Assembly: GCF_000003815.2 (NCBI RefSeq)
Contig: NC_049981.1
Coordinates: 15,976,089-16,040,088 of the forward strand
DNA from: Branchiostoma floridae
Lineage: Eukaryota; Chordata; Leptocardii; Amphioxiformes; Branchiostomatidae
Direction of reading: 5' to 3'
DNA: 64,000 nucleotides
Shown here: positions 16,784 through 47,590 of the stretch, piece by piece
Position numbering within the stretch: position 1 is the stretch's first letter
How the letters are laid out: each line of letters starts with the position of its first letter
Made by a program: the position numbers and the translations under genes
The notes under the pieces: model-generated
What the model saw: the letters and a program-made list of their open reading frames with translations, nothing else
The model's database searches: none
Told to the model about the DNA's origin: nothing

Positions 16784-19700
16784 TTACGCTTGCTTGATTT
16801 TTGTAGCGTAAACACGGTACAGACCGATGGAGGAAGAGATCATTCCCATGACACCTGTAAATGCCAGCGAGTTTTTTCCTGCCCACAGAAATCCAGGCGG
16901 CATCCAGTTTATGGCGTTGACCAAGTCAGTGGCACTCCCCACTAAAGTCAGCACGATGTTGAACTCTTGTAACCTCAGGGTCTTCATGGACTCTTTAACA
17001 TCACCTATGTCACTGCAATAAATGACAACAAGGATTATTTTGATAAAACCTCATTTATATTTATGAAAATGATGAGTACCTTAACATTCAGTTAGTTAGC
17101 ATCCTCATTTAAATAACACTCACAGCTGGAATAAGATGTCAGGAGTGACAGGTTGTTCAGTGTAATATGACTGGCTATACAGGTACAGATGCAGAAGCTG
17201 GCATGTTATGCTGAAGGGTGGTTATGAATATGATGGTTATACAGATGCAGATGCATATGAAATACAATGAAGTGTATGCAAAATCACCCGAGGTACCAGC
17301 CCAACCGCTGGTCGGATAGCCCAAAGGCTGGATGATGGGGTTTATGATATACCCACCCTAAATGTGAAATCAATTACAATGTCTGAATTCAAGAGGTGAT
17401 TTCTCGATGGTGGCGCACATTCAGTGTGTTCAAATTACTATATAGAAACCCATGTTATCATCCGGCCTGGAGCACCCATATCGAATGTGACATCAAGATA
17501 AATATCAAGCTGGCAGCTTACTCTTCTCCTCTCTGTTGTTTTCTTGCCAGGTTCTGTTTCTTCAGTCTGAGGATTATCAAAGCTCGCAGAGATCTGGGGA
17601 GAATAAAGGGAAAAAGAAACAAGCACACATAAATAAAAACAACAAGCAATACAATGATCAAATTGCTTTTTTTCTACGTTTGCACACAAATTCACATCCC
17701 AAATTCCAGCATGTACCGGTAGTCAATGGGGACAACCAGGTTTGACAAAAGTATTTTTCAGGAGGCCATTAGAGGAGCAAACTGGAGTTAGAATAAGATG
17801 GATACCTGACTAGAACCTGATTTATGTAAGTCCCGGGCCAGCAGTGAAGCAATTAGAGGAATGCACCAGAGCTAGAACACAGTGGTTACAAGGCTAGCAA
17901 ATTAGAAAAACTACCTAATGATGTTGAGGGTGAGAGAGCATGCCCAGATTTTGAGGCACCACAGCGAGAGGCCTTGTAAAGAAGGGGGGAGGATTTGTCG
18001 ATCTGCTGCCCATGCTATGTGCTCTACCGGATAGTACAGTTGGTCTAGGATGTTGTTAGCTACTCCTAGCCAACGGAGATACTCGTCTCCTTCCTGGAGA
18101 ATAATTAGACAAGATAAGGTTTGAACTGGGTGAAAGGCTGAAGACCAAGGTGTCAGCGAGTACAGTCCGCTTTGTTGTGTCCAGGAGTTGGGATTTTCTG
18201 TGGAAAAATCAGTGTAGATGTCAAGAGGCTGGGGACTGCATAGTGAGATTTGTGCCTTTCTTTGCCTGAAATTGAATGAAACTCAATTCTGTTGAGGAAA
18301 ATAACTGCCTTTTTTTGTCACTTTAAAAAAATGTACAGTTTCAATAGTTCCCTTAACAAGACTGAAATCTTAAATACATTGTATTCAAGGTAAAGCTAAA
18401 GTAAAGTATGTTGTTCCTGAACATCTATATCGGCATCTGTTCATCATTTTGATTATACTTGCTCTTGGGCTCTCTGATTGGGTAGACACAATTCCCACAA
18501 TGCAGTACGATGTTTGAAAGTTGCTGATTGGTTACCTGAGAATGTTTAAGGTTAAAGAGATAGCCCAGATCTTGGTACACCACTCTTTCAGCCGTGCGGT
18601 GTATACCCCGGGAAGGAGCTGTCTTTCCGTAGCCCACATCACGTGCTCCACGGGACCGTATATTTGGTCCACCATGTTTTTTACAACGTCCACACAACGA
18701 ATAAAGTGGTCCTTTTCCTGCAATGCAAAGGTCACCAAAGACATGTGAAACAAAGAAAGGATGTTTTGTTGGGGAAATAGACATGTGTTGCAGTACAAGC
18801 TGTTACAAAGTATAATAATCAATTACTTGTAGGATTTAACTAACAATGGTCGAAGAAGTAGGGCCATATTTCAGGGTCCATCCGATGACAAAATCAAACA
18901 AGGCAAATTTGAGATATCATTAGTACCATATTTGAATATATTTCTTTCATTGACCAAGTTTGAGGCTCAAATTGTTCTTTCAATATATAAATGTCTTTAT
19001 TAATATAGCTCATGTAAGGTATTCCTTTGTTTGTCTGACAGAAATGTTTTAGAATACTGAAATATTGATAAACCTTCATATAATCTATATAATTTGATGT
19101 TGATCAGTAATTTTTATGAAATACATTCTTCCTGTATGATTGGCAATTTTTATAAATGGTCAAGATACACTGGGCAGTCTACACAAACACTCAAAAACAC
19201 CTAAAAGCAATGATTAGCATGTATAAAATATTTAACGTTGGATTAAACGTTTCTAAATTTCGGAGAACAGTCAGTTAAACGTTAGAAACATTTTCCTGTA
19301 TGATTGTGAATTCTAATAAATGGCCAGGATATATATATTTCGTTTGACACCAAATAGTTGTGTTGTCGTGTATTACGGCCTTGCCACGTTAGCACCTTTA
19401 CAAAGAACGCCTTGTGCGATCGAAGTCCGCCAGACTACACTGTAAACATCCGGCAAGTGTTGACGTGTTCGCAGGTGGGAGGGGGGCGTGGCATCGCCAT
19501 TTCACAAAAAACAATAAGTAAAATAGGATCCAGCAATATTATGATGGTGCGCTACTCACATGTCCACCTAGGCCGTACGCCAAGTTGTACGCCAGCATAG
19601 GGATGTCATCGCAAAGCCTCAAGACGACTCTAGAGCCGCTCAGTGTCGAGGCTGTACCGACCAACACGTCGGAAAAGGCTTGGTGCTCCTTGGGCAAGAG

Positions 19701-19799
19701 ACCCGCGATGAGTTGGATGGTGTACCCACACGTCCTGATGACCTTGTCGCGCCCCCTGTATGTGTCTAGCAGCTGCACAGCGGTATCCATCCTTGACAT
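16784..19799 (-). CDS. PEX11G: Peroxisomal membrane protein 11 gamma (PEX11G)
   Basis: Minus-strand exons: 19560-19799 (ATG at 19799), then either 18536-18717 or 17915-18093, then 17522-17593 and 16784-17012 (TAA at 16784). Phases fit (0, 2, 2) and give 240 or 239 residues, against roughly 241 for human PEX11G. PEX11 proteins sit in the peroxisomal membrane and promote its elongation and division. The N-terminal segment LLDTYRGRDKVIRTCGYTIQ is the conserved PEX11 amphipathic region, also seen in the human gamma form as YRGRDRLIR. The C-terminal part has DLVNAINWMPPGFLWAGKNS, the gamma-type tail found in vertebrates as NAVHWLP-GxLWAG, followed by a hydrophobic helix (FTGVMGMISSSIGLYRVY). The two alternative second exons are described separately. 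A 1.8 kb stretch between the last exons and the start of the SV2 gene shows no other coding. Confidence 0.94.
17915..18093 (-). CDS. PEX11G: PEX11G alternative exon 2b
   Basis: 179 bp, phase 0 in and phase 2 out, with GT/AG borders. It encodes EGDEYLRWLGVANNILDQLY followed by YPVEHIAWAADRQILP and ending KIWACSLTLNII. By hand alignment it matches exon 2a at about 31 of 59 positions, including DQ-Y-PVEH--WA--RQ-LP and SLTLNI. From memory, this copy is nearer to vertebrate PEX11G (DQLYYPCEHVAWAAD). It is downstream of 2a in transcription order, separated by 442 bp. Confidence 0.88.
18536..18717 (-). CDS. PEX11G: PEX11G alternative exon 2a
   Basis: 182 bp, phase 0 in and phase 2 out, with GT/AG borders. 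It encodes EKDHFIRCVDVVKNMVDQIY followed by GPVEHVMWATERQLLP and ending KIWAISLTLNIL. It has the same borders and phases as exon 2b, so either exon joins exon 1 (ending YGLGGH) to exon 3 (RSLRALIILRLKK) in frame. Both together would shift the frame. Confidence 0.88.
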
Positions 19800-29681: not shown

Positions 29682-32600
29682 TTAGCAGTGATCGCTGTGT
29701 TCCGATGCTATCTGATCTATGCGGAGGAAACCCCGAATGGTGCGGTCAGTGTGTGAATCCTGTCCAGACCGTCCGCGGACACACCACACCGCTGCTTGTC
29801 TCCCCTTAACTAGACCATAAACTATCAGGTGACCCACGCTCAAAGATAGGATAAACCCGACAGCTATGGCGGCCGCTATAGCAGGAGAACTGCTGTAGTC
29901 CAGGAATGTGTAGATATAGGAGTTCCCCTGGTATTTCCCCCCGGCTACCCAGTACACTACAGTAAAGACAATGTATACAATCACAAATCCTATTGGGTAC
30001 ACAACGTGAAGCAAACGGCAAGGAAACCCAGACACTAGGATATCAATGATCACAAGAACAGAGTTTACGATATGGATGAGAATATTGCGAACATCCCAGT
30101 CATATGTGGCGCCCAGCAAGGCACCGAACAAGATGGTTGTGATGAGAGCACCGGTGAAGGCACAGTTTAAGATAACCCATTCCGCCTTTAAGGACCAGTG
30201 GAGGGTCTCAGGGCTGTCTGCTAGGTCCCTGTGGTCAACCTGAAATAGCGGAGAGACACTGAGTAAAAGCCCAACGATAAAGATAAATATTATTATAGGC
30301 CTTATGGAAGACGCTTGCACTGGCTTCTTTCAAAACCATTGTGCTTGTTGGATAGTTGTAAAATTGCTACCTAGGGCTGGGTATCGGTACAGCGTACCGG
30401 TGTGACAGCGATCTCGCCCCCCCGTGATCCCGCCCCCCCGGGGGCGAAATCACTAGCGATCTCGCCCCCCCCCCCCNNNNNNNNNNNNNNNNNNNNNNNN
30501 NNNNNNNNNNNNNNNNNNNNNNNNNNNNNNNNNNNNNNNNNNNNNNNNNNNNNNNNNNNNNNNNNNNNNNNNNNNNCAACTTAACCATGAATGACCATGG
30601 ACGGAATAAACACGGTTTACATGACATTTTAGAAGTTGATTGGTATAAATCACAAAATGTAGTTTCAGAATGATATAAGTACACGAGTTTGATACATAAC
30701 TCCATTCATAGTATCAATATTAACGTAATTACATGGTAATAAGATAGTTGAACTTGTTTCAGACAAGGAGGGTTTGGTCCCTTGTATTCCCATTATTGCA
30801 TATACCTGAGTCTTGACATAAGATGTATTTCATTGTATTCACCTGTCCTCAAGCAACCTATATATCTCCAATATGAAGTCTCTACCATGAAGTGACCACA
30901 AAAGAACTATGCAATGTCTTTATTAATTATGCAAATATTAGGTATTAATTAGAATAACGCACATTTTGGTATATGCACCTGGCCAAGGGATATCTTCACC
31001 TCCAACATGACTGTTTTTTCTAGTATTTAGGAACTGATGCATTTACCCGTGTTTCTTAAGACAGGTACTTTACCAGTGTTTGTGTAGCATTTAGCAACAG
31101 CTATATCAACTTGCGCGTAGATAGTGTTTATAATGAGAAACTATTATTCACGTGTGTTTTTGTTAGTGCTTTGGAAATGTTTCCAGCACAAGAAAGAAAA
31201 CACTGTGACAAATTGAAAACATATAGCTGACGTATTCCGTACCATAGACGGTGTTGATTTATACGTTCGCAATAGCACTGTTTTTATGCCACCTCAGCTG
31301 CAAAAATTGTCTTTTTTATTTCAATGTCATGTTTGCACCGAACAATATAGTATCGACTTTCGAGGTATGACATCTTACGGTACGGTAATAAGGTGCCATA
31401 TAGGTACCAGGTAACACACCATATACGTTACTCCCCAGGTGCAGTATAGTACCAGGTAGCGCACCTGTAATATGTAGTAGCCAGCTGCTCTGGGGGGGGG
31501 GGGCGAAAACGCTAAAGGGGGGCGAAAACGCTAGTGATCTCGCGAGATCGCTGTCACACCGGTACAAAACCGGTTTTTTTTATTGGACCGGTCCAGAAAA
31601 ACCGGACCTGAAAAAATTAGGTGGACCGGATGTTGGACCGATTAGAAAATTAAGAGATTATTTTATCAGGCATTCACGCGTTTTGGCGCTTGCAGGTGGA
31701 AGAAAATAACAAGAGTGAAGTAGAGTAGAGTTTATAGTAATTTCTACTAAGTTTTACAGCCAATCGCACAGGTGCAAATAGCGTTGGTGGATTGATTTTA
31801 AAACGCCAGTGTAAGTCTAATACTCCATCAAACAGATTTCTTTGTAGTGAAATGGACCATTGGTATGAGTCACACTGAATCAGGTCCAGGTTCAGGTCCG
31901 GACCTGGACCTGATCCTCTGGACCTGAACCGGACCTGGACCTGAATTTTCTGTACCGGTACCCAGCCCTATTGCTACCAATATGGAAGCCATGACTGTAG
32001 TCTGCCCGCTAGGCAAGTGATACCACCAGTATACCACACTAGTATCACTTTTACTACACTAGTTCACTTCTTCAATACAGGAATGAATGCCTTGTTAGTT
32101 GTGATACCACATTTTGTCATTTCAAATCTTGTTGCGACGTTTATGGTGTCTATTTTGAAAATTTAGCCATCTTGTTTTTTCTAACCATATTGTTTTTTTT
32201 CGTGCTATCTCATTATTTTTGCAATCTGCATAGGATGTCATCCATAAAATTTACTTGCTGTGGCCTAAAGCATGTAAACCATACATTGTACCTGCCTAAA
32301 CCTTTACCTGAACTTAGCAAAATGAATCTACATCACATCTAAAGAAGTCTGTACTTAAAAAAAAAAAAAAAGGAAACGAAGACTTGATATATCCATGAAA
32401 TATCTTGAACTTTTGTTGTGAATTTCTGTTTTATCTATCATTACTGCCAAGTTGTCGCAAATTTGGCTACGCACTTCCTGCGCATGAACCTTTGGACAGC
32501 ATTCCCATTTCCTTCCCATTTTGCCAATCTCCAGTTAGACCAATTTTACACCATTCGCCAAATACTGCCCTCGAGTATTCTCTTAATGTCTTGTGTAGTT

Positions 32601-35064: not shown

Positions 35065-38000
35065 TCATACTAAAGAGCAAGTCCCAACGACGTGTCGCAC
35101 CAGCCGTTTTTTGTGAAGACTCTGGAGAGTTTCAAACTCTTCGGTAAATTCATGTCTCTTGCTGGGTTTCCTTCTGTCGTAGTAGTGATATGGGACGGTC
35201 CTGTTGTTGTACGTTTTTAGGGGATAGTAGCCGTACAGAGACATCCTGTCGCAGAAGGTGGACGCCAAGGCGAAGTTATTCATACCTGTGGACGGAGTCT
35301 TCCACCATTTCCCACCGCTGAGCCAGGCGAACAGGCTGTGGAAACGAACACTGGGTTAGCGTCAGCAGCGGACAGATACAACAAAAAGTCAAACGATATT
35401 ATCTCGTGTCACTTCAACAGCGACACTTTATTAAGGCAGAGCATCACCATATCCACCAGTCCACTTTGGTTGCTTAGAGTTTGCAAAATTGGAATAATGA
35501 GTTTAAGGGGAAAACGCCGGCCATCGGGTTGGCAGCTAAGCTCTGAGCCAAATCACTCACCTTATTTGGAACATGTGGACAATATGTCCGATAGAGGGTA
35601 GTGATATCTGTACTGATAAATGTCTCGCTGTTGAGATTACACGAAAATATATCATATGCGAGGTTTACCATAATGAAAGCACGTCATGAAATTAGTTACC
35701 ATAATTCATATTGATAAATGTATTAAGTTCAGATTATGAAAAGTTTGTCCTTCCTAAATGCACTATTTGATAATAGACATTTTCTGGTGTATACGGAAAT
35801 ACAGTGTATACGGAAATAAAGTCCACTAACTTCCTTACCCCGCCCTAAAGCGCCTCAGCAATGACTCGTGTGGAAAAGCTAATATGACTGAAATGTTGTA
35901 TTGTTTCAGGACTTCGTCGATGAACTGCAATCTGTCGAATGCCTGAGACCCAAACATGTAGAGTACGTAGCTGAAGACCATGCCGGGGGATTCTCCTAAA
36001 AGCTCCCGCATATTTTCTCTGACGGCCGGGTCCGGCGATTCTAGCTGCTCATGAACCTGAATCAGTCGGATTCCGTTTATCAGCGTCAAGTTCGTCTTGC
36101 TTCCAACGTCCTTCAATGAAGGAACGAATGAATGGTTAAGTTACGTCATTGCTACTGAACTATGTTTTACGTACAAGTTTAGAATTACACATACATGAAA
36201 ACACAGTTTAAATTCACACGAAACGTTAAAAATTACGTTATCATCAAAGCAACTAACACAATCATTGGACTTTGCGGTTGATTTGAGTAGTCCATTACGT
36301 TATGGTTGAAATATGTCAGTTTTCGTTGCTCAACAGTCTTACTGAACAGTAATGGTACTGTGCTATTTTTGAAACGAGTGATGCATGCAACTGGCTGATA
36401 GAGTCACTTTGTAGAGGTTTTTACGCGTACCTTCCTGAAGTTGAGGACCGGCGGGAGGTTGGACCGGATGACGAAGTCGTGTGCGTCAATCTCCGAGCCG
36501 CAGCTGCTGTTGAGCAGAATCCCGCTGTTGCCGACCACTGCGCATGTGCGGTAGTGTTTGATGGGGGAGCGCACGACGTCACACGGGCGGGAAGTGTTAC
36601 GGAGTGTGAAGTCGCTCTTCTCGCACTGCTCCATGAAGATGTCATAGTCTGAGAATCTGATCACGTGACGTCTTGGGTCGTAATACGTCTTAGTGACACG
36701 TCTGTGGGGAAGGATGAGGCAATGAGGAGAATCAGGGTTCCGACTCTGCATGCGCAGCGAAATGCATTGTATGTAATTTGTCAAGGGTGGAGGGCCCTTA
36801 GGCTCTGAGACATAAAAGATGCGTCTGGACATGTTGTTTTACAAGTCTACGGTCAGTGTCTGGACATGTATTAACAGAGAACTATTTACAACTGAAACTT
36901 CATCTTGGACATGCTACCCACAATACAGTTTGCAGCGAATGGCTAGTTGGAATTATGAACCTCGCTGTTATAAGCAAATAACCTGTTTTTCAGTCTATTG
37001 AATCAACAAATCGACAAAATGTAATGTTGTAGACATAGTATTATAAGGATTGAATGACCGTTTAACGTTGGTATGAACGATGGTATGCATCTTTTACAAC
37101 ATTACTCGTACATATGTAGGTGTCTGGCATAATTCTAAGAATTACACCAAGCACATAGTTTATACATTGCGATAAAACATAGAAGCTTCAACTTACTGCA
37201 TTCTCTGAATACGTGAAACATTGAAGAATCTATCGAAGAAGTCTTCAAAACTTGTCACCGTATTGTTGGGGGATTGGGCTCGCTTGTCTGAAATATGCCG
37301 TAAATAGTTTCTGAGTTGCAGAAGGTCTGCTTTCGCGTCATCTACATTGAGTCCGTGTGAATTAACATGATGACTATCACTCGATATAACTTCAGTCGGA
37401 TTCCTCAGTGAAACAGGATGGAGTTGATAGTGTTCAGTTTCTTTTCTGTTAGACGTCGTCACCGGAAGCCTTGGGGATGAGCGTCTATCCCGTTCCATCT
37501 TCTTCATATGACTATTAGTTCTCGCTGTTTTCATATCATGTATTAAAAAGTTCATAATGGCATCACTATCTTTTTCCGTGTTCCTTGAATTGTGTGGTAG
37601 ACTTTTAGGTACAAAATGACTGTACACATCTCTAATCCTTGAATTTTCGACATCTACTTTGGAAATGTGTTGACTGTCTGTTTTGAAGTTTGCGTTCTGT
37701 ACAAGAACCTTTGCTATACGCATACTCTCTATCCATTCTTTGCTTACACTCCCCTGTTGCTTAGTTATCGGAGTGTTTTGTTTTTGAACAATATTCGACT
37801 GCTCTTGGAGTCTATCGTCTGTGTCGTTCATGTCCTGGCGCTTGACTGCAACTTTAGCAAGTCTCTGGTTGTATACGGTACTGCTGCGTGAGCCTCGTAG
37901 TGCAAAATTAAAAGGGATTTGGTCTTGTGTTCGTTTGCCCTTTGCAGTTGTACGATGAAGACGACTGTCCATTGCCATGTCGAGCAAAAGTTCTTCTGTG

Positions 38001-39688: not shown

Positions 39689-40223
39689 GTATGTAGGCAG
39701 CCAGTATCTGTTTTATGAAGACATTCATCTGAATGGATTTTGCTTTACATCGTTAGAAAACGTGGCCATCTTACAAGTATATTGTAACATGGGTAACTTG
39801 AAATAGATTTGTAAATTGCCAATTTTGATGAAAAATCATAAGATATGAGAAATGCTCAACGCCCGTGTGTGTTTTTGCCTGTGTAGTGTATGAAGGTCAT
39901 ATGATCGAAGTATTTGGAAGTCGTCAAGGTCAGTATGGCTTTCTATAGTCTGTGTAACGCAAACTCCACTGTGCAGGGCTAATTGGTCCCTCCCCGCACG
40001 GCCGCAGCAATGTAGGACAAGAGCGCGAATAAACCAGGCTAGGCTTTCTAGTTCTGACATTAGCATTGTCTCAAACTTAAGATTTACATGACAAAACGTC
40101 AAAACGTCATAGATTCTACTATAGATCATAATGCGATATAAATAATAAAAGCATTGGTGAATTGGCTCCGTTATGTCGTTTTGATTGTTGTGCCCTTCTT
40201 GTTTTTTCTAGGTTATATTTTCC

Positions 40224-41790
40224 ATGTCAACCGAGGCAGATGCGACCGCCGTCTCAATGTGCAGAAGGCTGTCTCGCAGTTTGATGCCGTTGCTTCTGGG
40301 TATGCTTCTGTTCGTCCTATACATAGCTACACAGGCCGTCTTAAAATGCCAGGCCACCACCGAGTCGCGCGGATCACTGGGAATAAGGAAACTCAGCGGT
40401 ATACCGGGGAATGGAGTGATAAGGAATCTCGGGGGAATATCGGAGAATGAGGTGATTCAAGAACACGCTGAAAACGCTGCTTCAAAACCACTCAAAGCAT
40501 TTCTTGTCATTCTCATCCCAACCGGACCGAAGTATGTATGGAGAAGAAACACATTGAGAGAAACGTGGTTCAAACTGGCAGACGACAATGTTCTACAGCG
40601 TTTCGTAATAGGCATGAAATCGTTAGATAAGGACGCTCAAGAACAATTAATCCAAGAAAATAAAGAACACGGCGACTTGGTGTTCCTGTGGGATTTTAAT
40701 GACTCCTACGGTGGGTTAGCCGCGAAGGTGTTATTAACGTTTAAGTGGCTTGACGAAAATGTGGATTTCAAATACGTCCTGAAGACAGACGACGACACAT
40801 TCGTGAGAACTGATCGCCTTCAGAAGGAGCTGAAAGAAAGAAACGTCCAGTCGAAACTGTTCTGGGGATTTTTCAGCGGAAAGTCGCCTGTCTATCGCGA
40901 AGGGATCTACGAAGAAAAAGACTGGTTCCTGTGCGACACTTATCTGCCGTACGCGTTTGGAGGCGGTTATATATTGTCCACAGACTTGGCACATTTCATC
41001 GCCAGCAACGCGCATTGGTTAAAGCCTTACAAGAGTGAGGACGTGTCCATGGGGGCGTGGCTGTCACCGCTGGATGTGCTGAGGGTTCATGATCCAAGGT
41101 GAGGAGTAACGGAGGCATCTCTCTGGTAGTAAGGCTTAGGTCACATGTCCAAACCCGGGCCCGACCGTGCAGCTTTCGGGAGGAAAAAGAATGATATAAA
41201 AGATATCAAAATACACAAAATGTCAACATAAGATTAATGGGCATAATTTGTGTATATTTCTAGGTATACATTTTAATTTTTCGTTTCTTTAAACATCCCG
41301 GCTTAGAAATGTGACCTAACCCTAACGTAACTTCCTGTATTATCGGGACTGAATTCACTACATTATGTGGTTTTGATAGTGCAATCCATGGCCAGTCTTA
41401 ATTCAGGAAACTTTTACTAGTGTTCTACCAACATGTGTCATTAATGATCACATAACCGAACCAAGATGACTTCATCACATAAAATCGTAAAATTTCGCGT
41501 AATTTATTTACCTTCGCCTTTTTTTTGCATGGACCTCTCGCCATTTCTCATTGGTTCTCATTCCTCTCGTTTTTTCTCCCAGGTTTAACTCGGAGCACGA
41601 GTCCCGCGGCTGTATGGACGAGTACCTGATCAACCACAAGGTGTACGACGAAGGCATGAAGGCGCAGTACAAGCAGGTGATCGAGACGGGAAGGCTCTGT
41701 CCGAAGGAAGTGCTGAAGAGAAGGTCTTACATCTACAACTGGGACGTTCCTCCCTCTCAATGTTGTAACAGAACATGGGGGATAATCTAA
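40224..41790 (+). CDS. B3GALT6: Beta-1,3-galactosyltransferase 6 (proteoglycan linker GalT-II)
   Basis: Coding exons are 40224-41098 and 41583-41790 (TAA), phase 2 junction, 360 residues; human B3GALT6 is about 329. The enzyme adds the second galactose of the glycosaminoglycan-protein linker in the Golgi. It is a type II protein with an anchor at about residues 20-40 (LMPLLLGMLLFVLYIATQAV). GT31 motifs seen are RRNTLRETW (107-115), VLKTDDDTF with the metal-binding DDD at 189-191, LFWGFFSGK, YLPYAFGGGYILS and SEDVSMGAWLSPLDV. HDPRFNSEHESRGC and the C-terminal YNWDVPPSQCCNRTWGI match B3GALT6 specifically (human ends DWSAPPSQCCQ). The ATG was chosen because it follows the acceptor by 12 bp and precedes the anchor. 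The human gene has no coding intron; this one has a single 484-bp intron carrying a MITE. Confidence 0.96.
41131..41325. mobile_element. MITE family C, copy 3, in the B3GALT6 intron
   Basis: Left end 'aaggcttaggtcacatgtcc', right end 'agaaatgtgacctaacccta'. The core (aatgatataaaagatatcaa, taagattaatgggcataatt) is nearly the same as copy 2 at 6821-7004. It starts about 32 bp after the exon 1 donor. Confidence 0.82.
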
Positions 41791-43340: not shown

Positions 43341-46300
43341 CTTAGCAAGCCGCTAGGGGGTCCATGATCAAACTTGACCTTCGTTTCCCGATCCCTACCC
43401 ACCTACCAAATATCATCAGGATCCATCCCAGGCTTCTCGAGTTATGCTGTTAAAACACACACAGACACACAAACACATCCAAAACCTAACCTTAGCCATT
43501 CTGGCAAAGGTAAAATTGTCGCAGTGGTTTTAGTCTATTGTCCAGGTTTGTGCGGCAACCCCTCAGCTCCAAAACCATAACTCCACAAATGTGCATTTTA
43601 GTTGTATGAAACTGTTCAGAAGTCACCCTCAAGCTTAAAGCATCGAGAAACAAGTACCATTTCCACCACCCTGTCACAATTGCAAGGGGGTAGGCACGAT
43701 TTGCACAAAGCCCACCATACCACATATTTATCTAGAAAATTTTATATAATATTCCCTGGAGAATCCCTTCTTTCCTTTTTTGTAGACAGTCAATGAAAAC
43801 ATGTCTGGATATATATATCTTTCAACCACATTTTTAACAATGTACATTATGTACTTATTGTCTAACTGTGAATTCAGACATCCATAGAAAAAAGTAACCG
43901 ATATCATTTCAAATTTCCCTTACGCCTTGTAACCTGAGTTCCTTACAGCTGTTCATCAGTTCATATTCAATTTGATGACAGAGTGATAACACGCCTACTC
44001 ACAATAGGGGATGTGTTAAAAAGTCCGAATGTTTGAAGTGTAGCCACAACTTGACTGTACATTAAATATATGTAAGTCAATTGGGAACAATGTCCCAAGC
44101 TCTGCTCTACTACCTCATGTTCCTTGTATCTCTATGTACACCCAAAAGATTTTCCACAAAATCACCTCCGTGTAATTTCTGCTGGGCAATTGTCTTCTGA
44201 ATTAGCTCTGCCCCAAATCTCACAACCATATGATATAAGAGGTAGACAGACTTGAATGCATGAAGGCTTTGAGACTGAAAATGGCTTTTAAAAGACTACT
44301 GCAAGGACAGCTCAAATTGAGACCATGTAGTGAAAAGAGAGATGACAGTGTACCTACCTCTCAAACTCAAAGGAAGGAGAAGAATACAGACTAAGACCGT
44401 TGTTATGTACATAAGCCCATCATTTTGGCTTGCCAAGTTGATCATATGGCCTAAGGGTCAACTAACACATTTGCAAGGTCTGGCCTTTACACCTCTGAAA
44501 TATCAGGTTGCTCACAGGACTGACTGATCATAGGCCAGTCCAATTCATGGACCAGGAACCCCTCAACTGTGCTGACAGCTGCTAAGGTGGAGTGGGGTTG
44601 TAAAGCTTCAGAGGTTTTTGACAAAAATGCCCCTGCTATCCCTACACTAGCCGCTAGGGGGCCCAAACTTGTGTCACTAACTTCTGAGCACAAGAGCTAT
44701 CTAACACCCGAAATTCGTGCCCATAGCTTGTTCAGAAGATGGAAAAACACACCCGGAAGTTGCGCTGCAGTACCAAGGGAAGCCGCTAGGGGGCCCATTA
44801 TCGAACTCCCCCTTCATTTCCCAGACCCCTACCCACCCACCAAATACCAGCTGCATCCGTCGAAGTCTTCTCGAGTTATGCTGTCCGCGGACAAAAGTTT
44901 GCAATTAAACCGGCGCCTGCACTTCCATGAAAGCAGCTAGGGGGCCCAAACTCGCAGCAATCACTCCCTGCTTTAAGAGCTCCCTAACGCTAAAAAATCA
45001 CGACCACAGTATGTCCGGAACGCGAGATATCAAGCATGCAGGTCCTGCTGCTGTACCTTAGCAAGCCGCTAGGGGGCCCAAACTCGCAGCAATCACTCCC
45101 TGCTTTAAGGGCTCCCTAACGCTCAAAAATCACGACCGCAGCATGTCCGGAACGCGAGATATCAAGCATGCAGGTCCTGCTGCAGTACCTTAGCAAGCCG
45201 CTAGGAGGCCCATTATCGAACTCGACCTTCGTCTTCCACACCCCTACCCACCCACCAAATATCAGCTGCATCCGTCGTACTCAATAACAAATGTTCTCTA
45301 TCTGTCCATTGTCTAATTACGTAATTAGGGTCGCGGGGAAATACTTATGCAGTGGTTTTATGTTCTTGGCAGCCAGTCGGAAACAACACAGCGACTCGGG
45401 GCCTACAGACGGACATAACACTCGCCTCGGCGGTGCGCATGCAGTGCTTTAGTTTCGTGATAAGGAAGCTAGATAACGTATACAGTAACTTACTTTTAGT
45501 TTTGATTTCAAGTGCATTGCAGAATGATGTTTCGTGAAGACATGTATATGACGTCCGGAGCACAACAGGTACAGCACTTCTGTGGCACGTAAATAAACTG
45601 TGCTTTGTACCACCTCCCATACCACCTCTCGGCCCCCCGCCCGTGGTGATGCGGTCCAAATGACCAACTCCGCATTATCGCAGACGCCGGATAATTGCAC
45701 GAAATTCGCTGGCAAAATGGGTGTGCAATTAAGCGGCTTCCACTGTATAACAATTCACACATCCTTGCAAAGAATGGTTGGCTGTCATGCAACAATAGCC
45801 CACCAGAAAGGATTCACCAGTGCCCAGCAGTGGAATCAAAAAAATATACAGAGGCAACAATAGGGCTTACTTTTATGGGGGCAATATGCTATTTCTACCA
45901 CTTGGCAACATTGGAGTGCTTGACAAAAATGCCCTGCATTTCCACAGAACTTTTGGACAAAAATGCCTGCTATCCCCAGAAACAAGCCGCTAGGGGACTC
46001 AAACATATGTCACGTCTTCCAAAAACAACACCTTTCTAACACTTAAAATCGTTATCATACATGTTCTGTACCATTCCTTTCCCCAATCCCTACCCAACTA
46101 AGCTCAAAAGATATGGCACGAACTCTGTCTATAGAGGTTACACATCTAAGTAGAAGAAATTACAGGACACAGAGTAAATCAAAAACCTGGAGAACGTCTC
46201 TTTCTTTAAGAGTCATATGTTTCAAATAGCATATACTATCTTTTATCACTGATATTCTGTCGTAAACAAGTCAAACTAATGTCCATACATAAAAGAGTCT

Positions 46301-47590
46301 GAATTCATGTATATCTTAACTGTCTGCAACTTCTAGGAGCAAAAGACCACTAGGGATCTACCTGACTTAAGCAGGGCTTAAGAAAAGGCATTATGTAACT
46401 TTACGGACAACACAGACGTGCAGAAAGTAGATTTCCCTAACATTGCTTGGCACAGTACAATAAGCATATAGACACCATCAGTAGTATCAAACTATCCTTT
46501 CCTCTCTTATCGTTTCAATACCTTACATGTCAATCTTACCTGTCAGATAGGTCATGCACAGTTGCTTGCAGACCGACAAGACCAAGGAGGTTATATTCAG
46601 AATATAACCTCCTTGGACAAGACCTTCCAGTTAATCCAGTGTTTTCAAATATCTCCTGCTCCAAAACAAACTTGCTTGACTCTAGCTCTGTGCTTAGGCT
46701 AAGAAACAGCTGCCACCTGACCTTAGGGCACCCCCCCTTCACCTCAACATCGGATCAAGTGATTGACAGCGTCAACTGTGCTGTGGTGGAATCAACCAAA
46801 CCAGGCTGGGGGGTTGCAATGCTTCAGAAGTTTTTGACAAGAATGCCCCTGCTATCCCTACACTAGCCGCTAGGGGGCCCAAACTTATGTCACTAACTTC
46901 TGAGCACAACAGCTATCTAACACCTAAAACTCGTGGCCATACCATGTTCAGAAGATGGAAAAACACACCCGGAAGTTGCGCTGCAGTACCAAGGGAAGCC
47001 GCTAGGGGGCCCATTATCGAACTCCCCCTTCGTTTCCCAGACCCCTACCCACCCACCAAATACCAGCTGCATCCGTCGAAGTCTTCTCGAGTTATGCTGT
47101 CCGCAGACAAAAGTTTGCAATTAAACCGGCGCCCGCACTTCCATGAAAGCCACTAGGGGGCCCAAACTCGCAGCAATCACTCCCTGCTTTAAGGGCTCCC
47201 TAACGCTCAAAAATCACGACCGCAGCATGTCCGGAACGCGAGATATCAAGCATGCAGGTCCTGCTGCAGTACCTTAGCAAGCCGCTAGGGGGCCCAAACT
47301 CGCAGCAATCACTCCCTGCTTTAAGGGCTCCCTAACGCTCAAAAATCACGACCGCAGCATGTCCGGAACGCGAGATATCAAGCATGCAGGTCCTGCTGCA
47401 GTACCTTAGCAAGCCGCTAGGAGGCCCATTATCGAACTCGACCTTCGTCTTCCACACCCCTACCCACCCACCAAATATCAGCTGCATCCGTCGAAGTCCT
47501 CTCGAGTTATGCTGCTCACAAACGGGGAGAACCACACCACCAAACCGAAAACATAACCTTAGCCATTCTGGCAAAGGTAATTAGTACAAA
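43340..47590. repeat. Repeat block with 'gccgctagggggcccaaact' modules
   Basis: The module gccgctaggggg(c/t)cc occurs near 43350, 44652, 44791, 45067, 45196, 46866, 46998, 47281 and 47416, with variants near 44935, 45988 and 47150. It is joined to 'accttagcaagccgctag', 'cccctacccacccaccaaat', 'gtcttctcgagttatgctgt' and 'tcccgctttaag'-like segments. Within it, about 44560-45280 and 46800-47500 are near-identical copies of one multi-module array, the second followed by 'agccattctggcaaaggta', which also ends the 43340-43520 copy. Open frames here are shadows. About 45300-46800 between the arrays shows no gene. Confidence 0.85.

Follow-up and report, generated by a model that had tools for sequence, protein, structure and literature searches.

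A candidate pair of mutually exclusive exons, arisen by tandem duplication, in the PEX11G gene of Branchiostoma floridae

Exchanged exons in amphioxus and in membrane proteins

Mutually exclusive exons formed by local duplication are a well-described kind of gene structure, in amphioxus as elsewhere, and the candidate pair described here would add a new gene, PEX11G, to that kind. The closest amphioxus cases are the G-alpha genes, in which such exons have been described for exon 6 of preGNAI, exon 5 of preGNAQ and the final exons of preGNAS (PMC5896119). They share with PEX11G the lineage (B. floridae and B. belcheri in that report), the origin by local duplication and the placing of the copies in the same slot of the transcript, and the likeness extends to the exchange of a protein-interface segment, as described there for the G-alpha proteins (PMC5896119). 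The G-alpha proteins act in signalling and were compared in two species with a tree of the exon copies, whereas PEX11G is a peroxisomal membrane protein and its pair was found in one genome.

A second relevant case is dynamin-1, also a membrane-remodelling protein in which a middle segment is exchanged by exclusive exons, 10a and 10b (PMC2916854). Family and position are unrelated to those of PEX11G, and the usage of 10a and 10b was measured and shifts in development, whereas the PEX11G pair is known from genome sequence. The same paper suggests that the divergent dynamin-1 exon 10a is perhaps vertebrate-specific. OGDH, with exons 4a and 4b, is like PEX11G a housekeeping metabolic gene carrying two exclusive exons (PMC7969005).

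Variety within the PEX11 family (PF05648; alpha, beta and gamma in human) has been described elsewhere as separate genes (PMC9221819), or as an alternative promoter in the case of PEX11B (PMC3699530). Both predicted isoforms of the amphioxus gene match the family profile over its full length and have the N-terminal amphipathic helix region in their common first exon. The sequence-only reading of this DNA knew of no exon switch in a PEX11 gene, and none was reported in the literature searched, a scope to which subscription journals and genome-browser annotation do not belong; an automatic gene model may already carry both isoforms.

The PEX11G gene and its alternative exons

The window, meaning the whole 64-kb stretch of DNA that was analysed, carries on its minus strand (19799–16784) a single complete PEX11G-like gene with five coding exons. 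The coding part of exon 1 (19560–19799, minus strand) encodes 80 aa, including the N-terminal amphipathic region, and ends at the donor CAT/GTGAGT. Upstream of its ATG the frame continues for two codons to an in-frame stop, and there is no upstream ATG. On its own this exon scores 41.9 bits against PF05648 (profile positions 1–72). In a provisional comparison with human segments, bearing on whether the gene is of gamma or of alpha/beta type, it gave a score of 151 with 33 identities for PEX11G, and a score of 1 with 19 identities for PEX11B.

The two alternative exons follow. Exon A (18717–18536, minus strand) has 182 nt, or 60 aa plus 2 nt, and exon B (18093–17915, minus strand) has 179 nt, or 59 aa plus 2 nt. 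Both are complete, with AG before and GT after, and both enter in phase 0 and leave in phase 2, in agreement with the coordinates, phases and lengths given in the sequence-only reading. Taken alone, they match the same PF05648 positions (80–138) at 39.1 bits (A) and 36.7 bits (B), the curated cut-off being 23.8. The intron between them (18094–18535, minus strand) is an ordinary GT-AG intron of 442 nt, in which the nearest AG upstream of the B acceptor lies at −34. An ATG at 18744 (minus strand) is in frame with exon A and nine codons 5′ of it, with no stop between; it is a possible internal start, which would give a product truncated at the N-terminus.

Common to both isoforms are exon 4 (17593–17522, minus strand; 72 nt, with splice borders and an open frame) and the coding part of exon 5 up to the stop codon (17012–16784, minus strand). 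Isoform A, of 240 aa, scores 139 bits against PF05648 and isoform B, of 239 aa, 136.8 bits (cut-off 23.8), each over profile positions 1–221 of 222. Both thus belong to PEX11 by a full-length match above the curated cut-off, and they are predicted to differ only in residues 81–140. Within the intron between exons 4 and 5, the region 17332–17170 consists of repeat stretches found at many sites in the genome, and its part at 17225–17170 recurs elsewhere as adjacent 56-bp units, for example on contig C18.

Exons A and B encode 31 identical residues out of 59, with 41 of the 59 positive, so that the earlier estimate of a match at about half of the positions holds. The alignment score of 167 compares with a maximum of 23 among 2000 shuffles. 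A WebScipio-style scan over both strands of the window gave 606 candidates, these being open stretches between AG and GT that have the required phase and differ from exon A by no more than 10 aa in length. Six of these reached a relative score of 15%, all of them A, B or border variants, and the best candidate after those six scored below zero. The published criteria for mutually exclusive exons (PMC3228551) are a length difference of up to 20 aa, the same phase, compatible splice sites and a relative score threshold of 15%; A and B differ by 1 aa, have the same phase and GT-AG introns, and reach 51.5%. In the Drosophila X-chromosome transcripts of that study, such features were seen in 90 of 16180 non-exclusive exons (PMC3228551). 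When the A and B regions were compared by blastn, the exonic match was the sole one with E below 3.

The genome assembly (513,431,437 bases in 431 contigs) was searched for further copies. At E up to 10, a protein search matched each of the five exons of the PEX11G gene once, exons 1, 4 and 5 among them, and nothing elsewhere. Neither this search nor the scan of the 64-kb window revealed a third copy of the exchanged exon. When the full 3 kb of the gene served as a DNA query, with 40 of 408 candidates scored, no second copy was found; among the 80 matches listed, the best was the gene itself and the rest lay within two of its introns.

Amphioxus is highly polymorphic, and this lends something to the idea that two haplotypes, or the products of a mis-join, were set in tandem by the assembly. 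Such an artefact is hardly credible here, however. The two copies have a protein identity of 53% and saturated synonymous sites, far beyond what is expected of alleles, their introns do not align, and both exons suit one set of neighbours that is found once in the genome.

A genome search with the Pfam profile gave, at E up to 10, four matches beyond exon 1 and exons A and B. One is exon 5 of the same gene. A second, on contig C16 (26 bits), is probably an exon of an alpha/beta-type PEX11; in a tentative comparison with human PEX11B sequence, the gene beyond this exon looks like a separate PEX11 of that type, with exons on the minus strand at 5048211–5048155, 5045870–5045757 and possibly 5045269–5045186 (loci L025 and L027). 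Its middle exon was not located by a regular-expression search with weak patterns, which returned only an unrelated stretch. The third match, on contig C12 (18 bits), contains three internal stops, and the fourth, on contig C15 (17.3 bits), has no stops and covers the middle profile positions 93–141. Pattern searches for relatives yielded 14 matches in viral contigs and 51 in genome contigs, with none confirmed in either, as expected for an animal gene. Among solved structures no relative was seen, the sole row at E up to 10 being an EFHC2 chain (E 0.99).

Several other features of the window were recorded. A direct duplication of 684 bp (44594–45277 and 46810–47493) is 96.8% identical between its copies, and each copy contains a 132-bp tandem repeat of about two units. 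A tandem repeat with a 145-bp unit occupies 35–688 in 4.5 copies. An open frame of 293 aa at 40221–41102 (plus strand) matches Galactosyl_T (PF01762, 124.7 bits) over profile positions 2–194 of 195 in a single stretch. At 36404–36838 (minus strand) lies a portion of a gene resembling sialyltransferases (PF00777, 69.8 bits), and an open stretch at 29682–30329 (minus strand) is matched by PF21534, the rolling stone family, at 60.4 bits.

Constraint, reading frame and splice signals

Between A and B, dN was 0.42 and dS 2.0 by NG86, and 0.41 and 2.66 by maximum likelihood, giving a dN/dS of about 0.2. The codon bootstrap range of dN/dS was 0.10–0.51; in 232 of the 1000 replicates dS had no defined value. 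Neutral drift was simulated with one copy unconstrained over half of the dS, in 3000 runs per setting. At 0.5, 0.75 and 1.0 changes per site, the simulated copies retained on average 20.8, 13.7 and 9.6 identities among the 59 residues, and runs with at least 31 identities numbered 13, 0 and 0 of 3000, respectively. Since dN is far below dS and drift so rarely preserves the observed identity, selection must have acted on both copies through most of their history. Coding constraint, as looked for in mutually exclusive clusters, is therefore present on both copies.

These figures bear directly on the possibility that only one exon does the work, the second being a skipped relic or near-silent copy. 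The donor of exon B is the weaker of the two by a consensus matrix, which would suit a copy going out of use. However, A and B are both open and both above the PF05648 cut-off, and with about two synonymous changes per site separating them, dN has stayed low and the simulated relics lost their likeness in nearly every run. Each copy also has 26 identities with a human PEX11G segment (scores 131 for A and 127 for B); this equality is a lead, and not a test, that neither copy is plainly degraded. A relic is consequently quite unlikely, and a loss of use would have to be very recent to agree with these values.

The tandem duplication of the exon appears to be old, with both copies under selection and both looking functional. 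Very probably, a middle exon of the ancestral PEX11G was duplicated in tandem long ago, and the two copies have persisted as mutually exclusive exons that give two full-length proteins. The proposal of an exclusive pair, made in the sequence-only reading, gains support from the shared phases, the good borders, the common PF05648 positions, the constraint, the neighbouring exons with single genome matches and the frame. By inference, both exons would be spliced in, the choice between them would be regulated and the two proteins may differ in function.

The frame had been said to break with both exons or with neither, and this is borne out. With A and B together (361 nt), translation would end within exon B, at codon 150, and the last junction lies 223 nt further on. 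When both are skipped, the first codon of exon 5 (TGA) becomes a stop at codon 105, beyond the last junction, and the product would be a fragment of 104 residues that lacks the hydrophobic segments. Joint inclusion and joint skipping are both non-productive, as in a mutually exclusive cluster, and by the frame a productive transcript does need exactly one copy. The transcript with both exons is predicted to be a textbook target of nonsense-mediated decay, while the one lacking both is expected to escape junction-dependent decay, so that some wrong products would get past a safeguard based on the frame alone. In a human survey, 377 (60%) of 629 exclusive clusters had lengths not divisible by three, and reads of joint inclusion were seen in only 83 of those 377 (PMC5740500), which indicates that the frame is often not the enforcer of exclusivity. 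In PEX11G it may act as a back-up, in which double inclusion would be rendered unproductive by its early stop and the decay that should follow.

The choice could also be made by promoters, with an internal promoter and first exon serving one of the copies. The frame of exon A is open for 35 codons upstream and includes the ATG at 18744, and an isoform from an alternative promoter exists for human PEX11B (PMC3699530). Such a product would, however, be without the entire N-terminal helix region, the frame of exon B meets a stop upstream before any ATG, and each of the two exons has an acceptor and a phase that continues from exon 1. A choice by promoter is very unlikely, and a choice by splicing is preferred.

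Among the 114 GTs between 17500 and 19600, scored with a consensus matrix, the donor of exon 1 ranks first, that of exon A second, that of exon 4 third and that of exon B fifth. The donor of exon B (TAG/GTAGTT) is weak by the same matrix, with 4.4 against a maximum of 12.6. Its acceptor is preceded by the richer pyrimidine tract, with 13 of 17 positions compared with 10 of 17 for A. Branch-point-like motifs occur at −12, −22 and −38 of exon B; these are motif matches, and they lie about 400 nt from the A donor.

Two simple means of exclusion were considered and rejected. Steric exclusion requires a distance of less than about 50 nt between donor and branch point (PMC5740500, PMC7969005), and in human OGDH exclusivity is ascribed to distant branch points 25–41 nt from the 5′ splice site (PMC7969005). 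PEX11G is unlike OGDH in this respect, since the B acceptor has an AG 34 nt upstream and motifs resembling branch points no more than 40 nt away. Given an intron of 442 nt and motifs so near the acceptor, exclusion by steric hindrance or by a distant branch point is unlikely. Incompatibility of U2 and U12 sites does not apply either, as all introns are GT-AG and the four donors, compared by eye, are unlike the minor-type consensus.

Competing RNA structures in the introns, of the docking and selector kind, could impose exclusivity as well. They are established for other exclusive clusters (PMC6071210) and are named as a possible mechanism in the human survey too (PMC5740500). In five comparisons the duplex energies between introns were ordinary, 56, 29, 11, 8 and 7 of 60 shuffles being as good; the test is coarse and insensitive to a single short conserved docking site. 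The sequence-only reading had proposed a search for docking and selector sequences, and this one lent the idea no support, intron pairing being no better than chance at that coarse resolution. Docking and selector structures are held to be an unlikely explanation of the exclusivity.

Motifs of splicing factors were counted with eight patterns in three introns (24 tests) against 200 mononucleotide shuffles. Three excesses were the largest: the intron after B has two TGTGTG where 0.1 were expected, intron 1 has an MBNL-like pair twice where 0.6 were expected, and the A–B intron has four TCTT where 2.4 were expected. Some further motifs were slightly above expectation. None of these excesses was counted as a signal among the 24 tests. 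In the human survey, the 484 clusters that remain after steric limits, splice-site incompatibility and frame are described as tightly regulated by other means, with RNA–protein interactions, interactions of snRNPs and splicing factors, or competing RNA structures being named (PMC5740500). Trans-acting factors are accordingly favoured for PEX11G, where they may choose between exon A, with its stronger donor, and exon B, with its weaker donor and richer pyrimidine tract.

The exchanged segment and its possible roles

The swapped segment is the middle region of the protein, as had been stated in the sequence-only reading, but it does more than lead to the first hydrophobic stretch, as it contains the N-terminal part of that stretch. 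The 60 residues begin with another amphipathic helix, which over the same 18 residues has a moment of 0.58 in A and 0.46 in B, values reached by 0.4% and 2.5% of 5000 shuffles, respectively. The motif Y-x-P-V-E-H-x-x-W-A is common to both isoforms. Divergence is greatest in a linker (TARLKEW in A, QGLSLW in B), after which KIWA-x-SLTLNI, again common to both, starts the first hydrophobic stretch. Isoform A has 7 Lys/Arg in the segment and a net charge of 0, and isoform B has 3 and a net charge of −3.

In the trypanosome PEX11 protein a PEX19-binding site adjoins the first predicted transmembrane segment and is essential for targeting (PMC10469627). A difference in charge close to the first hydrophobic stretch makes PEX19 binding and targeting a concrete hypothesis for A and B. 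The same paper reports that in an N-terminal peptide array PEX19 bound human PEX11 beta and not gamma, a result that gives no encouragement to a PEX19 role of PEX11G, and its single N-terminal PEX19 site in the yeast PEX11 protein also counts against the hypothesis (PMC10469627). For human PEX11 beta, residues 53–70 form a helix that matters for the shape of liposomes (PMC4467191), and the N-terminus carries oligomerisation as well (PMC9221819). A 2022 review describes what PEX11 gamma does in the division of peroxisomes as 'less clear' than the part played by beta, although gamma partly rescues beta-deficient patient cells (PMC9221819).

In the reading of an old duplication with two exclusive exons, the helix of the common exon 1 would supply the basic membrane-bending activity, and the exchanged part might tune partner binding, oligomerisation or targeting. 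A tentative extension, which we consider possible and rather doubtful, is a peroxisome switch under the control of splicing. Two proteins with the same membrane-bending N-terminus would bind different partners through their middle segments, for example PEX19 before the first hydrophobic helix or a PEX11 of the alpha/beta type, and the shape or targeting of peroxisomes would be set by the choice of exon. If this is true, exon choice in amphioxus does a job that vertebrates may give to separate PEX11 genes. A swap of 60 residues that has been under selection until synonymous sites saturated marks a part of the protein with a tunable function, and isoforms A and B provide two matched natural variants for the study of partner binding, oligomerisation and membrane tubulation.
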